Origin: a virus
Strand: one strand, 5' to 3'
Virus record (IMG/VR): IMGVR_UViG_3300044716_001482
Location: 1 to 23,155 of that record
Length of the DNA stretch: 23,155 nt
In this document: piece by piece, positions 2,624 to 7,466 of the stretch
Position numbering within the stretch: position 1 is the first letter of the stretch
Layout: each line of letters starts with the position of its first letter
Notes under the pieces: generated by a model
What the model saw: only the letters and a program-made list of their open reading frames with translations
Told to the model about the DNA's origin: nothing
The model's database searches: none
Translations under genes and position numbers: made by a program

Positions 2624-3246
2624 TGCTTAACGCAAACATCCCTAGCTTTAAAGCGCTAGTTCGTAAATCATATTTTACAAAAAACCAAGAAGATCATAAC
2701 GAATTCTATAATGTATACGTTTTTGGTCTTCAATCATGCGCTGGAACTATATTAACATTTCATGTTATGACAGATAACGGGATGATTCGTTCTCGTGTTC
2801 CACTTTCCGAAATTTATACAGAAATCCCAACAAACGACATTCCATTTAATTTTAAACAGTTATGGGATTGTTTTAGTGAAAACGTAGCTATTATAGAATA
2901 TAGCTTTTTAGCATATCATAGAGCACAAATTGTTTTAAGAGACGGAAATAAAGTTTGGGGCACCTATATGTTTACAGTAGATTGGTTCAATAATCCATAT
3001 AGCGATGAACCAACAGATTACAAATGTGGTCATATATTCGAATCAGACGAAGGGTATTTAATGTGTATGCCCAATAATAGAATATTCTGGAAAGACTCAA
3101 ACTGGGTAACCAAACCACTCCCAGAGAATCTAAAGCAATATAAGGTAGATACAGAACTTCCAAGCGTGGAAAACCAATCAGATAGATGGGTTACCGAAGA
3201 TGGAGATTCTTTTTATTACGATATGAATGAAACTTCTATAAAATGA
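2623..3246 (+). CDS. Conserved hypothetical T4-like phage protein
   Basis: This 207-residue protein has a mixed alpha/beta pattern rich in aromatic residues (FYNVYVFGLQSCAGTILTFH, VWGTYMFTVDWFNNPYSDEP, GYLMCMPNNRIFWKDSNWV). I recognise the style as a conserved protein of environmental T4-like phages, but no function is known to me. There is no signal peptide, P-loop, Cys-pair metal site or nuclease motif. Tryptophans in several short beta-like segments could suggest a compact single domain. It overlaps the upstream gene by one base (TAATG) and the kinase-like gene downstream by four bases (ATGA). Confidence 0.65.
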   Translation: MLNANIPSFKALVRKSYFTKNQEDHNEFYNVYVFGLQSCAGTILTFHVMTDNGMIRSRVPLSEIYTEIPTNDIPFNFKQLWDCFSENVAIIEYSFLAYHRAQIVLRDGNKVWGTYMFTVDWFNNPYSDEPTDYKCGHIFESDEGYLMCMPNNRIFWKDSNWVTKPLPENLKQYKVDTELPSVENQSDRWVTEDGDSFYYDMNETSIK

Positions 3247-3758
3247 TTAAACTATCAGACATATTAAAAGAAACATACTTGGGTAGAGGAGAACAAGGTA
3301 AAGTATATGCTATAGGTAAAGATAAAATTAAAAAACAAAGTAATTTTTTAGATGGTTTCACTCAAGATGAATTATATTTTTATAATCAATTTAATAAACA
3401 TCTTGATATATTTCCTAAAATATATGAATTAACTAAATCATATGTTATTATGGATAGATTATATGACATGCCTGATCTTAGTAATGTTTTAAACTATTTA
3501 GAACAAATTAACGTGTGGCGAGATAAAGATCCTATGACAATGATTTATTATTTATTAAAAAATAATGATTCATCTGAAATAGATACATTATTAAATAAAA
3601 CAAAAAATAATAAATCTGTATATAATTCTCTTTTAAAATATATTAAATTTACTCAAGATGTATTAAATGTATTTCCTAATAAATCTATTGATTTTCATAC
3701 AGGTAATATTGGAGTTGATAATAATGGAGATCTTAAAATTTTTGATTTAGCAATATAA
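3243..3758 (+). CDS. Protein-kinase-fold protein
   Basis: This 171-residue protein shows the hallmarks of a minimal eukaryotic-like or aminoglycoside-phosphotransferase-like kinase. LGRGEQGKVYAIG (residues 13-25) is a glycine-rich loop. Lys30 or Lys31 could be the ATP-binding lysine, and Glu43 the helix-C glutamate. YVIMDRL (67-73) looks like the hinge. IDFHTGNIGV (149-158) matches the catalytic loop Asp150...Asn155. KIFDLA (165-170) replaces DFG with metal-binding Asp168. The chain stops right after that motif, so the usual C-terminal lobe is almost absent and the protein is shorter than known kinases. Base composition is much more AT-rich than its neighbours (AAT, TTA and ATA codons dominate), suggesting separate origin. 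The N-terminus MIKLSDILKE resembles leaders of other proteins here. Phosphotransfer activity and target are unknown. Confidence 0.65.
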   Translation: MIKLSDILKETYLGRGEQGKVYAIGKDKIKKQSNFLDGFTQDELYFYNQFNKHLDIFPKIYELTKSYVIMDRLYDMPDLSNVLNYLEQINVWRDKDPMTMIYYLLKNNDSSEIDTLLNKTKNNKSVYNSLLKYIKFTQDVLNVFPNKSIDFHTGNIGVDNNGDLKIFDLAI

Positions 3759-3778: not shown

Positions 3779-4039
3779 ATGACCCCATACACTGATCTAG
3801 AGATTACAGACCAATACATCATTAGGGAGTTCAACGAGAACATAGACCCGATTGAGCTATTATGGCATCGGGACGATGAAGATCGTACTATAGAGATTTT
3901 AGAGGGAATAAATTGGATGGTTCAATTAGATAACCAATTGCCAGCTTTACTAAACTCTCATATATTTATACCACGAGGTATGTGGCACCGAACCATTAAA
4001 GGGGAGGGACCACTTAAAATTAAAATATATAAAGAATAA
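3779..4039 (+). CDS. Small cupin-like protein
   Basis: This 86-residue protein fits one cupin-like beta barrel: WHRDDEDRTIEILEG (residues 29-43) followed by FIPRGMWHRTIKG (about 63-75) and a closing strand LKIKIYK. The two His-containing strands (WHRD and WHR) could hold a metal in the way cupins do. The family is common in T4-like phages as small unassigned ORFs, and some cupins isomerise or oxidise sugars or amino acids, but the reaction here cannot be deduced. The gene starts 20 bases after the kinase-like gene, has no Shine-Dalgarno, and overlaps the next gene by one base. Confidence 0.6.
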   Translation: MTPYTDLEITDQYIIREFNENIDPIELLWHRDDEDRTIEILEGINWMVQLDNQLPALLNSHIFIPRGMWHRTIKGEGPLKIKIYKE

Positions 4040-4782: not shown

Positions 4783-4837
4783 ACTGAAAATTTACTATTT
4801 AGACTGATTCATAGCCAGTCGCTTATTAAAAATTTTG

Positions 4838-4880
4838 ACAGCTGTGGCGTCACCAAATTTGGAGATGTCACAGCTTTTTA
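4838..4880 (+). terminator. Rho-independent-type terminator after the first gene block
   Basis: Bases 4840-4851 (AGCTGTGGCGTC) pair with 4864-4875 (GATGTCACAGCT) using two G-U pairs. The stem continues across one A-A mismatch through CCAAATTTGG, and a run of T follows at 4875-4879. It sits 55 bases after the stop of the Gly-rich gene and separates it from the dehydrogenase cassette. Confidence 0.8.
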
Positions 4881-4907
4881 TTATCTTAACGCGTAACAAA
4901 TAAAAAT

Positions 4908-6278
4908 ATGAAGGAAAAGAAAATCGTAATTGTAGGTGCAGGTGTAGCAGGAGTTAATGCTGCAACCAAACTGGTTGATAGCGGGTATCCTGGTGAACTA
5001 ATCACAATCATTGATATGGGTAAAGACCCATATAACCGTTTACCCGAAGAGGTAATGACTGGATTTTTAGGTGCCGGAGGATGGTCAGATGGTAAACTAA
5101 CCTACCACACAGCCATTGGTGGTCAGTTATCTAAGTATTGTGGTGAGGAAAAAGCAATGGAATTGATGGATCAAGTTATCACTAATTTCAAGCGTTTCCA
5201 CCCTAAACCAGAAGAAGTACAATGCTCAAATCCAGATACAGAACCCGAATTTATTAAACCATATTTTGGTTTGCGTTTGTTTCCAGTTTGGCACGTAGGT
5301 ACAGATTATCTATCTGAAATTGCTAAAAACTGGTATGATTATTTAGTGTCTAAAGGTGTAGAGTTTAAATGGGAAACCAAGGTAACCAGTATTAACTTCA
5401 GACACAACGAGGTTGTAATGCATTCGGTTAAACCCGAATTTGCAACTATGGATAATGATGGGGTATTTTATGATGAACTTATCTTTGGTGTAGGTAAATC
5501 AGGTATTGATTTTGCTCAACAATTGGCTAACCAATATGAACTACCAGATGAACCTAAATCAGTTCAAATTGGAGTACGTTTTGAGGCACCACAAAAACAC
5601 TTTCAAAAACTAATTGATATTTCATATGATTTTAAGTTGTATAGAAAATTTGACGATAAAGGTGTTTCACTTCGCTCATTCTGTACAAACAATAATGCTG
5701 CGTACGTTGCTGTAGAGGAAACATATGGTGACCACAGCTATAATGGTCACGCTAAAAAAGATCCAAAATATCTAAACGGGATGACCAATTTTGGCATCTT
5801 GATGGAAATCAATGGCATTGAAGATCCATTTACTTGGTCACGTGATGTAGTAAATAAGCTTCAGTTTAATGGTACTGGTTTATATTATTCACCAACTCGA
5901 GTTCCATCTACCACAGCAGAAGGAAACAATGTTACAGCTTTCCAAATCGATAATTTAAGTGGAGTAGAACATGTAATGGGTGAATATTGGAACTATATTA
6001 TGGACTTTATCGAGGATATGAAAAAAGTATTCCCTACATTAAAAGACGATTGGGGTATTTACGTTCCCGAGGTAAAATATCTTTCACCTGAACCACTTGT
6101 AAACTACCGCAACTTGTCTCTAACCAAGTTCCCCAATGTACACTTTGTAGGAGATGCATTATCAGCTAGAGGTATAACAGTTTCAGGAGCTCAGGCAATA
6201 TACGTTGCCGAGGACGTTCTTTCTTATTACCTTCGCGATACCGAATATCCGGAATTTATTAGCCATTATGTAGCATGA
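4908..6278 (+). CDS. FAD-dependent dehydrogenase (COG2509-like)
   Basis: This 456-residue cytosolic flavoprotein has a Rossmann FAD-binding start, IVIVGAGVAGVNAA (residues 6-19, GxGxxG). GAGGWSDGKLT follows at 55-65 and FGVGKSGIDF at 193-202. IGVRFEAP is at 221-228, and the C-terminal FAD-contact motif VHFVGDALSARGITVSGAQA follows near 410-430. This arrangement resembles the uncharacterised FAD-dependent dehydrogenases of COG2509, where SDGKLT and a GVR(V/F)E segment are characteristic. The natural substrate is unknown. The gene heads a four-gene overlapping set, placed between a terminator and a late-type promoter, so it forms a separate unit within the structural region. The start context is A-rich (aacaaataaaaat) without a Shine-Dalgarno. 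The gene appears full-length and intact; an auxiliary metabolic or tRNA/nucleotide-modifying role is speculative. Confidence 0.8.
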   Translation: MKEKKIVIVGAGVAGVNAATKLVDSGYPGELITIIDMGKDPYNRLPEEVMTGFLGAGGWSDGKLTYHTAIGGQLSKYCGEEKAMELMDQVITNFKRFHPKPEEVQCSNPDTEPEFIKPYFGLRLFPVWHVGTDYLSEIAKNWYDYLVSKGVEFKWETKVTSINFRHNEVVMHSVKPEFATMDNDGVFYDELIFGVGKSGIDFAQQLANQYELPDEPKSVQIGVRFEAPQKHFQKLIDISYDFKLYRKFDDKGVSLRSFCTNNNAAYVAVEETYGDHSYNGHAKKDPKYLNGMTNFGILMEINGIEDPFTWSRDVVNKLQFNGTGLYYSPTRVPSTTAEGNNVTAFQIDNLSGVEHVMGEYWNYIMDFIEDMKKVFPTLKDDWGIYVPEVKYLSPEPLVNYRNLSLTKFPNVHFVGDALSARGITVSGAQAIYVAEDVLSYYLRDTEYPEFISHYVA

Positions 6279-6547
6279 AAAAACAAACAATTTACGAAGA
6301 ACGCCGAATGAGATCTAAAGGAGCATATCATCACTTCTTTAAAGAAAGTGGCAGCACCTCTTGGAAATACCACAACTGGGAAGGTCCAGCAATTCAACCT
6401 ATTGAAGGCGAGCAAACCGAACATAAAAAAGAATACTATCTATATGGCAAACATATGATTTTGGAACAATGGGAAGAAGCTCGTAAAAATAGAGAAGGTT
6501 TACCTTGGTATAAGAACGCTTCAATGAAAGGAACAACACGATTCTAA
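6275..6547 (+). CDS. Small unknown protein with degenerate W/GPA repeat motif
   Basis: This 90-residue protein is basic and rich in Trp, Tyr and His (SWKYHNWEGPAI, EYYLYGKHM, GLPWYKN). The WxGPA...YYLYGK order recalls the short HREDGPA/WYxxG repeat modules often found as small phage proteins of unknown role, here reduced to about one unit. It overlaps the dehydrogenase by four bases (ATGA) and the cupin gene by one base, so it is translated with them and may act with them. There is no catalytic motif. Confidence 0.55.
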   Translation: MKKQTIYEERRMRSKGAYHHFFKESGSTSWKYHNWEGPAIQPIEGEQTEHKKEYYLYGKHMILEQWEEARKNREGLPWYKNASMKGTTRF

Positions 6548-6930
6548 TGGGACATAAGTATCAACCAGTACCCCGTAAAGGGGATATTTACAAAAAAGCT
6601 TGGGGACACGAACTTTGGATCGCAAACCACGAAGCATATTGTGGTAAACTCCTTGTATTTGAAAAAGATAAAAAATTCTCAATGCACTACCACTTGATTA
6701 AAGAAGAATCGTGGTACGTTTCTGAGGGCGAATTTGAATATAGCTGGATTGATACTGAAAAAGCCTCCATTCACTCAACTTTGATTCGTAAGGGAGACGT
6801 CGTAGATTTAGAGGTCGGACAACCACATCAACTAAAGGCACTTACTGAAGGTGCTACAATTTTTGAGGTATCCACCAAACACTACGAGGAAGACAGTTAC
6901 AGAGTAATACCAGGATCATCACAATTATGA
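6547..6930 (+). CDS. Cupin-domain protein (mannose-6-phosphate isomerase-like)
   Basis: This 127-residue protein is a single cupin barrel. KAWGHELWIANHEAYCGKLL (residues 17-36) resembles the entry strand of type II phosphomannose isomerase cupins. MHYHLIKEESWYV (46-58) contains the metal ligands His47, His49 and a following Glu (53 or 54). GQPHQLKAL (91-99) supplies the third histidine, His94. IFEVSTKHYEEDSYR (105-119) is the closing strand and tail found in the sugar-isomerase branch. A metal-dependent sugar or small-molecule role is likely, but the substrate cannot be read from sequence. It overlaps the upstream gene by one base and the kinase downstream by four, tying it to the flavoprotein operon. 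Confidence 0.75.
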   Translation: MGHKYQPVPRKGDIYKKAWGHELWIANHEAYCGKLLVFEKDKKFSMHYHLIKEESWYVSEGEFEYSWIDTEKASIHSTLIRKGDVVDLEVGQPHQLKALTEGATIFEVSTKHYEEDSYRVIPGSSQL

Positions 6931-7457
6931 AAATAGGATTATGTGGAACAATGAGTGTAGGTAAAACCACACTTGTAAACGCACTTAAGGAATTACCAGA
7001 GTTCAAAAACTATACGTTTAGAACTGAACGTTCAAAATATTTAATGGAGCAAGGTATTCCCTTAAACACGGATTCTACACTTAAGGGTCAAACAGTATTT
7101 TTAGCTGAACGAGCTATGGAGCTTATGCAAGAAAATATCATTACAGACCGTACCATAATTGATGTAATGGCTTTTGCTCGTGCTTCTAAGTCAATGGATC
7201 CCGTTGAAAAATATGATTTTGAGCAACTAGCTATGTTGTTAATTAAAGACTATGACTATATTTTTTATATAAACCCAGAAGGAGTAGATATAGAAGATAA
7301 TGGCATACGTGAAACAGATACTGAATATCGTAAGCTAATTGATTTTATAATTGTTAACTATCTTAAATCAAGACGTTCTCTTATTAAAAATTATGGTATA
7401 TTGGAAGGTCCTACTGAAGAGCGTATTAAACAGCTTAAATTTCAATTAGGTTTGTGA
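6927..7457 (+). CDS. P-loop nucleotide or nucleoside kinase-like ATPase (AAA_28/NadR type)
   Basis: This 176-residue protein starts with a clear Walker A loop, GLCGTMSVGKTTLV (residues 4-17). ITDRTIIDVMAFARAS (about 71-86) corresponds to the DR-type acceptor-binding segment of small nucleotide and nucleoside kinases. YDYIFYINPEGVDIEDNGIRETD (about 108-130, in parts) includes the Walker B-like strand followed by an Arg-containing lid. The pattern best fits AAA_28/NadR-like ribosylnicotinamide kinases or deoxynucleoside kinases. Length is normal for such enzymes and no frameshift is visible. It is the last gene of the dehydrogenase-cupin cassette and its stop touches the first base of a late-type promoter box. 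Phosphorylation of a nucleoside or NAD precursor is an inference. Confidence 0.7.
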   Translation: MKIGLCGTMSVGKTTLVNALKELPEFKNYTFRTERSKYLMEQGIPLNTDSTLKGQTVFLAERAMELMQENIITDRTIIDVMAFARASKSMDPVEKYDFEQLAMLLIKDYDYIFYINPEGVDIEDNGIRETDTEYRKLIDFIIVNYLKSRRSLIKNYGILEGPTEERIKQLKFQLGL

Positions 7458-7466
7458 TATTTATAA
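7457..7466 (+). promoter_or_regulatory. Late-promoter-like box ATATTTATAA
   Basis: ATATTTATAA begins at the last base of the kinase stop codon and ends 22 bases before the ATG at 7489. It is one of seven similar intergenic boxes in the window and would drive the AT-hook to terminase unit. Confidence 0.6.

Follow-up and report, generated by a model that had tools for sequence, protein, structure and literature searches.

A conserved flavoenzyme and nucleoside-kinase-type gene pair headed by a candidate RNA switch in a large family of uncultured phages

A FAD-dependent oxidoreductase gene (FAD gene) and a P-loop kinase gene are the conserved core pair of a large family of uncultured phages, and a previously undescribed two-hairpin RNA element, a candidate RNA switch, is found at the head of their operon. 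The pair was analyzed in a 23-kb virus record (23,155 nucleotides, the window) from a T4-like phage that is kin of Flavobacterium phage Immuto (portal proteins 59% identical). A related locus, taken from a 54-kb contig, carries genes that match the window with 100% identity. A sequence-only reading of the window had described four packed genes with enzyme motifs, with a terminator hairpin on one side and a late-type box on the other; the open reading frames (ORFs), the hairpin and the box were all confirmed, and the view of the cassette as its own transcription unit is supported. The structured RNA and a promoter-like element at the operon head had been overlooked. All features described below are on the + strand.

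Gene content and conservation of the operon

The cassette opens with the FAD gene (4908-6278; 456 aa), a core gene that encodes a divergent COG2509/VP0956 relative. It is followed by a 90-aa ORF without known family (6275-6547), shared by many loci, though not by all, and at lower identity, a cupin gene (6547-6930) and the second core gene, which encodes a P-loop nucleoside-kinase-type protein of the AAA_28 family (6927-7457). The four ORFs overlap by 4, 1 and 4 nt, in this order. These overlaps are real, as the sequence-only reading had noted, but about ten other gene junctions in the window are similar; short overlaps are thus a general style of this genome, and their interpretation as a sign of co-translation or special coupling within the cassette was rejected. 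Fusions of the 90-aa ORF with the kinase or the cupin, suspected from ORF lengths, were put down to alternative starts that lie upstream in a different frame. The late-type box ATATTTATA (7457-7465) opens the next, structural unit. Seven copies of this box occur in the window against 1.07 expected, and six of them lie at gene boundaries (7457, 10381, 12306, 13756, 18821 and 19607). In this lineage, the box likely serves as late promoter; a genome-wide count in one relative gave no enrichment.

A homologue search over 2.9 million viral contigs returned at least 599 confirmed FAD homologues. For the best 80 of these, the kinase gene was located downstream of the FAD gene in 76 loci, and the synteny was repeated in a second draw of loci with a divergent query. 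Across 153 related viral loci, which are not fully independent because some overlap on the same contigs, the kinase is present in 145 (~95%), the 90-aa ORF in 51 (strict coverage) and the cupin in 27. The two core genes keep their position upstream of terL and are sometimes directly adjacent, with a gap of less than 20 nt in about 15 loci. In terms of sequence, the FAD protein is better conserved than both terL and portal: its identity to the window has a median of 78%, exceeds that of terL in 94 of 110 loci and shows a median of 76% where terL falls to 63%, values that may be somewhat inflated since the FAD gene was used to find the loci.

The conserved co-occurrence proposed for the whole cassette therefore applies to the FAD gene and the kinase and does not extend to the cupin (phrog_7851, 6e-35; Pfam Cupin_2 below cut-off only). 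The proposal of a metal cupin as a joined core partner was abandoned, as the gene is missing in most loci and its slot takes other genes. Elsewhere, this slot contains a type II mannose-6-phosphate isomerase or a cupin fused to an FkbM methyltransferase, and cyanophage relatives of the cupin are located in sugar-nucleotide operons. Genes for a DUF6884 protein, a metallophosphoesterase, an Fe-S protein and AAA/VWA proteins also occur between the FAD and kinase genes, as does a cytidylyltransferase-like gene in one locus. The DUF6884 gene occupies this position in seven loci (L014:4565-5038 and relatives). In some operons, a relative of pyrimidine-dimer glycosylase is inserted as first gene before the FAD gene.

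A cellular donor in Bacteroidota was sought with a profile search of 296 genomes, which yielded only distant partial matches besides a phage contig in a MAG, while a pattern scan of genome contigs returned two contigs, both apparently of phage origin. One candidate locus from human feces (L086; MT836509, 'Bacteriophage sp.') looks like a bacterial chromosome with ABC-transporter and DXS-like ORFs and was set aside. The search of a defence library gave no meaningful match. Further genes of the window were noted in passing. An 86-aa protein (3779-4039) with an HxD...H pattern that resembles a mini-cupin is encoded upstream of the FAD gene in most loci and also found in Immuto and in Methylophilales and Tenacibaculum phages. 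The ORF at 3243-3758 weakly matches the phage kinase family phrog_18305 (9e-5), and the ORF at 2623-3246 matches phrog_3704 'ferredoxin' (2e-39), a name that is shared by Immuto gp081 and looks doubtful.

The flavoenzyme and the kinase

The FAD-binding motif ascribed to the dehydrogenase is present: the protein contains GxGxxG and matches Pyr_redox_2 (3e-7), and residues G10, G12 and S60-D61-K63 are invariant (alignments A2 and A3). Its description as COG2509-like also holds. Profile searches identified 3NLC as the top match (8.5e-8), the profile comparison with a cellular COG2509-type protein reached 99.7% probability, and the predicted structure (pLDDT 84.5) superimposed on 3NLC with a Z of 29.8 and 3.1 A for 387 aligned residues (second best hit: Z 19.0). 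Pfam FAD-depend_C (PF21688) is matched by a cellular relative and not by the phage protein; since the structural alignment with 3NLC nevertheless spans residues 1-447 of the model, the phage protein is called a divergent COG2509 relative. As 3NLC is an uncharacterized structural-genomics protein, the reaction cannot be read off from the fold, and a literature search on COG2509-type proteins gave no functional paper.

A small-molecule kinase fold is likewise borne out, on the basis of the AAA_28 domain (PF13521; 3e-11, 44.3 bits against a cut-off of 27) and of a structural model (pLDDT 88.4) that places the protein in the nucleoside-kinase class. The P-loop residues G7, G12 and K13 are invariant, as are the ERS and DR motifs. 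In the predicted fold, deoxynucleoside kinases rank level with the NadR riboside kinase as nearest neighbors (Z about 16.5). The sequence profile searched against the PDB finds deoxynucleoside kinases and not NadR, while a match to phrog_3462 NadR (2e-4) covers the kinase domain.

The RNA element and transcription signals

The RNA element consists of hairpin 1 (4802-4820), with a 5-bp stem (4802-4806 with 4816-4820) and the loop AUUCAUAGC (4807-4815), and hairpin 2 (4836-4852), with a stem of 3-4 bp and the loop AGCUGUGGC (4840-4848). It is found about 100 nt upstream of the FAD gene in most loci, hairpin 2 follows hairpin 1 after about 20 nt, and both 9-nt loops are near-invariant while the stems covary freely. 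For 75 distinct sequences, 94.4% of cells were paired in comparison to 78% after shuffling and 26-52% after sliding, where related sequences can also exceed shuffles and the slid control is partly favored because the structure was picked after viewing the sequences. RNAalifold predicts both hairpins unaided and serves as an independent check. The covariation is 0.408 against 0.114, and all nine stem pairs vary on both sides. In hairpin 1, all five pairs covary and 99.7% of cells are paired (75 sequences); in hairpin 2, the inner two pairs are paired in 100% of cases, with compensatory changes. The loops are complementary to each other (CAUAGC in loop 1, GCUGUG in loop 2). Pair 16-60 between them occurs as GC, AU and UA, a U-G pair is nearly invariant (74/75) and the last pair is not formed in 13 of 75 sequences. 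The compensatory changes are few and confined to one pair, and this pattern supports a contact of loop 1 with loop 2 but does not prove it.

An intrinsic terminator (4840-4879) overlaps the element. Its stem (4840-4875) has a folding energy of -22.7 kcal/mol (z -6.0) and is followed by a T run. Loop 2 and the 3' arm of hairpin 2 make up the 5' arm of the terminator, so that hairpin 2 and the terminator are mutually exclusive; by folding, this overlap is kept in 88 of 100 relatives, 86 of them with the T run. A model search detected one copy of the element in each of two near-complete genomes of 166-170 kb, and of 106 informative cases in a scan of viral contigs with the loop motifs only, 102 had the FAD gene downstream. 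The arms of the four matches without FAD are unpaired, and these hits look like chance. The element stays at the operon head even if a gene is inserted before the FAD gene. It matches no Rfam family at the gathering score and was not found in 197 other Bacteroidota genomes, in Immuto or in the Campylobacter and cyanophage stretches.

Between the hairpins and the FAD start lies the promoter-like element TTTGG-N19-TATCTT (4858-4887), with TTTGG at 4858-4862 and TATCTT at 4882-4887. The Bacteroidetes -33/-7 promoters resemble this arrangement. The exact 19-nt spacing of TTTGG-N19-TAnnTT is present in 72 of 104 loci (0.1 expected), and the motif is enriched genome-wide in two relatives. In relatives, this promoter class also precedes homologues of QueE, ssDNA-binding protein and DNA polymerase. 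Due to its position downstream of the hairpins, transcripts starting at this promoter-like element would lack the RNA element. No conserved promoter was detected upstream of hairpin 1 across the loci.

Proposed function and alternative explanations

The operon is tentatively viewed as a regulated nucleotide or base-chemistry module under an attenuator-like RNA, a reading that is favored here at somewhat less than even confidence. The flavoenzyme would oxidize or reduce a small molecule and the deoxynucleoside-kinase-type enzyme would phosphorylate a nucleoside or nucleotide; together, they would most likely make, salvage or clear an unusual (deoxy)nucleotide tied to phage DNA chemistry. The operon would be driven by its own promoter-like element and not by the late box. 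The two-hairpin RNA would form on read-through transcripts, where its loops can pair; as long as this fold persists, it should keep the overlapping terminator from forming (antitermination). A weakly suggested link to base modification comes from near-complete relatives that encode FolE, QueC and QueE, in one case with QueD and a DpdA-like gene, and from Immuto, where the kinase homologue is a neighbor of QueF; a set of FolE, QueD, QueE, QueC and transglycosylase is present in one relative (G001) and partly in a second (G005). QueC occurs in five of 17 FAD-bearing contigs, and neither QueC nor QueD was found in two 130-kb FAD-bearing contigs, which are possibly incomplete. This absence speaks against the module, as does a Fletchervirus FAD homologue (24% identity) without adjoining kinase. 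The position of the promoter-like element behind the RNA and the few compensatory changes in the loop-loop pairing also weigh against the proposed scheme. The promoter class shared with QueE, ssDNA-binding protein and DNA polymerase homologues and the inserted pyrimidine-dimer glycosylase relative are counted in its favor. QueF was not found in seven FAD-bearing contigs and Immuto is without the FAD gene; the idea of the flavoenzyme as a QueF replacement was dropped, since it comes down to an anti-occurrence in few genomes. A bolder version, considered a long shot, takes the loop-paired hairpins as a phage riboswitch of a new class; its ligand would be a modified nucleobase or nucleotide, and the flavoenzyme-kinase pair under its control would make a previously unknown DNA base or the precursor of one.

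Other substrates can be envisaged for the same two enzymes. The kinase might be a NadR-like nicotinamide-riboside kinase and the flavoenzyme might catalyze an associated redox reaction; the pair would then replenish NAD+ in the face of a host defence that depletes it. The tie of the NadR kinase domain in the fold comparison, the phrog_3462 match, Immuto genes annotated as NadR and NAD synthetase, which have homologues in relatives, and the cytidylyltransferase-like gene of one locus fit this idea, which is nonetheless improbable: the PDB profile search favors deoxynucleoside kinases, these phages carry a NadR-like gene apart from the kinase and the operon shows no recurring NAD gene. Equally doubtful is an action on proteins, RNA or a glycan precursor instead of nucleotides. 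The slot genes point to sugars, given the sugar-nucleotide operons of the cyanophage cupin relatives, the mannose-6-phosphate isomerase and the FkbM fusion, but these genes are optional, the slot is also occupied by DUF6884, metallophosphoesterase, Fe-S and AAA genes, and the kinase fold is that of the nucleoside-kinase class.

The role of the upstream element can also be read differently. As the 3'-end or a small RNA of the upstream gene, it would act as a stabilizer or terminator and leave the operon unaffected. The promoter-like element, located past the RNA and ahead of the FAD gene, is in accordance with this, and in many loci only a short distance separates hairpin 1 from the stop codon of the upstream gene; such a role is unlikely rather than far-fetched, as it is the downstream FAD gene that is conserved and not the upstream gene. 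There is little probability that the element is a DNA site, i.e. a replication origin or packaging site. A single copy per genome, the location upstream of terL and the promoter-like element inside it would suit such a site, yet near-invariant loops, covarying stems, the U-G loop-loop pair and the terminator overlap fit an RNA, and the element is retained at the operon head despite gene insertion before FAD. 

That the flavoenzyme is better conserved than terminase and portal throughout a large family of aquatic phages implies that its chemistry, as yet uncharacterized, is needed. The RNA element provides a concrete, testable single-copy handle whose ligand, once found, would name the pathway, and the module may give COG2509-type proteins a first function.

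Comparison with known systems

The phage flavoenzyme shares its fold with VP0956 (PDB 3NLC), and GxGxxG and SDGK-type motifs are common to the phage protein and a cellular relative. It differs by an identity of only 17-19%, a length reduced by about 80-100 residues and a phage-specific clade. Gp008 of Campylobacter phage NCTC12673, a Fletchervirus NAD(FAD)-utilising dehydrogenase, is homologous over 88% of the length (about 24% identity); this gene is located near dUTPase and clamp loader genes, with no annotated kinase beside it and no RNA element found. The homologue of the window kinase in Immuto, gp203 (29% identical), is encoded between a formyltransferase and QueF in a 7-deazaguanine cluster near DpdA, with no flavoenzyme beside it. 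Two small hairpins with pairing loops also characterize the guanidine-II (mini-ykkC) riboswitch, from which the window element, without Rfam match, differs in the sequence of its 9-nt loops and in their overlap with a terminator. The manA and wcaG motifs of cyanophages are structured RNAs of T4-like phages for which control of metabolic genes has been proposed (PMC2864571). The window element, while matching neither of these nor any other Rfam family, is like them in its T4-like phage origin and its association with metabolic genes.
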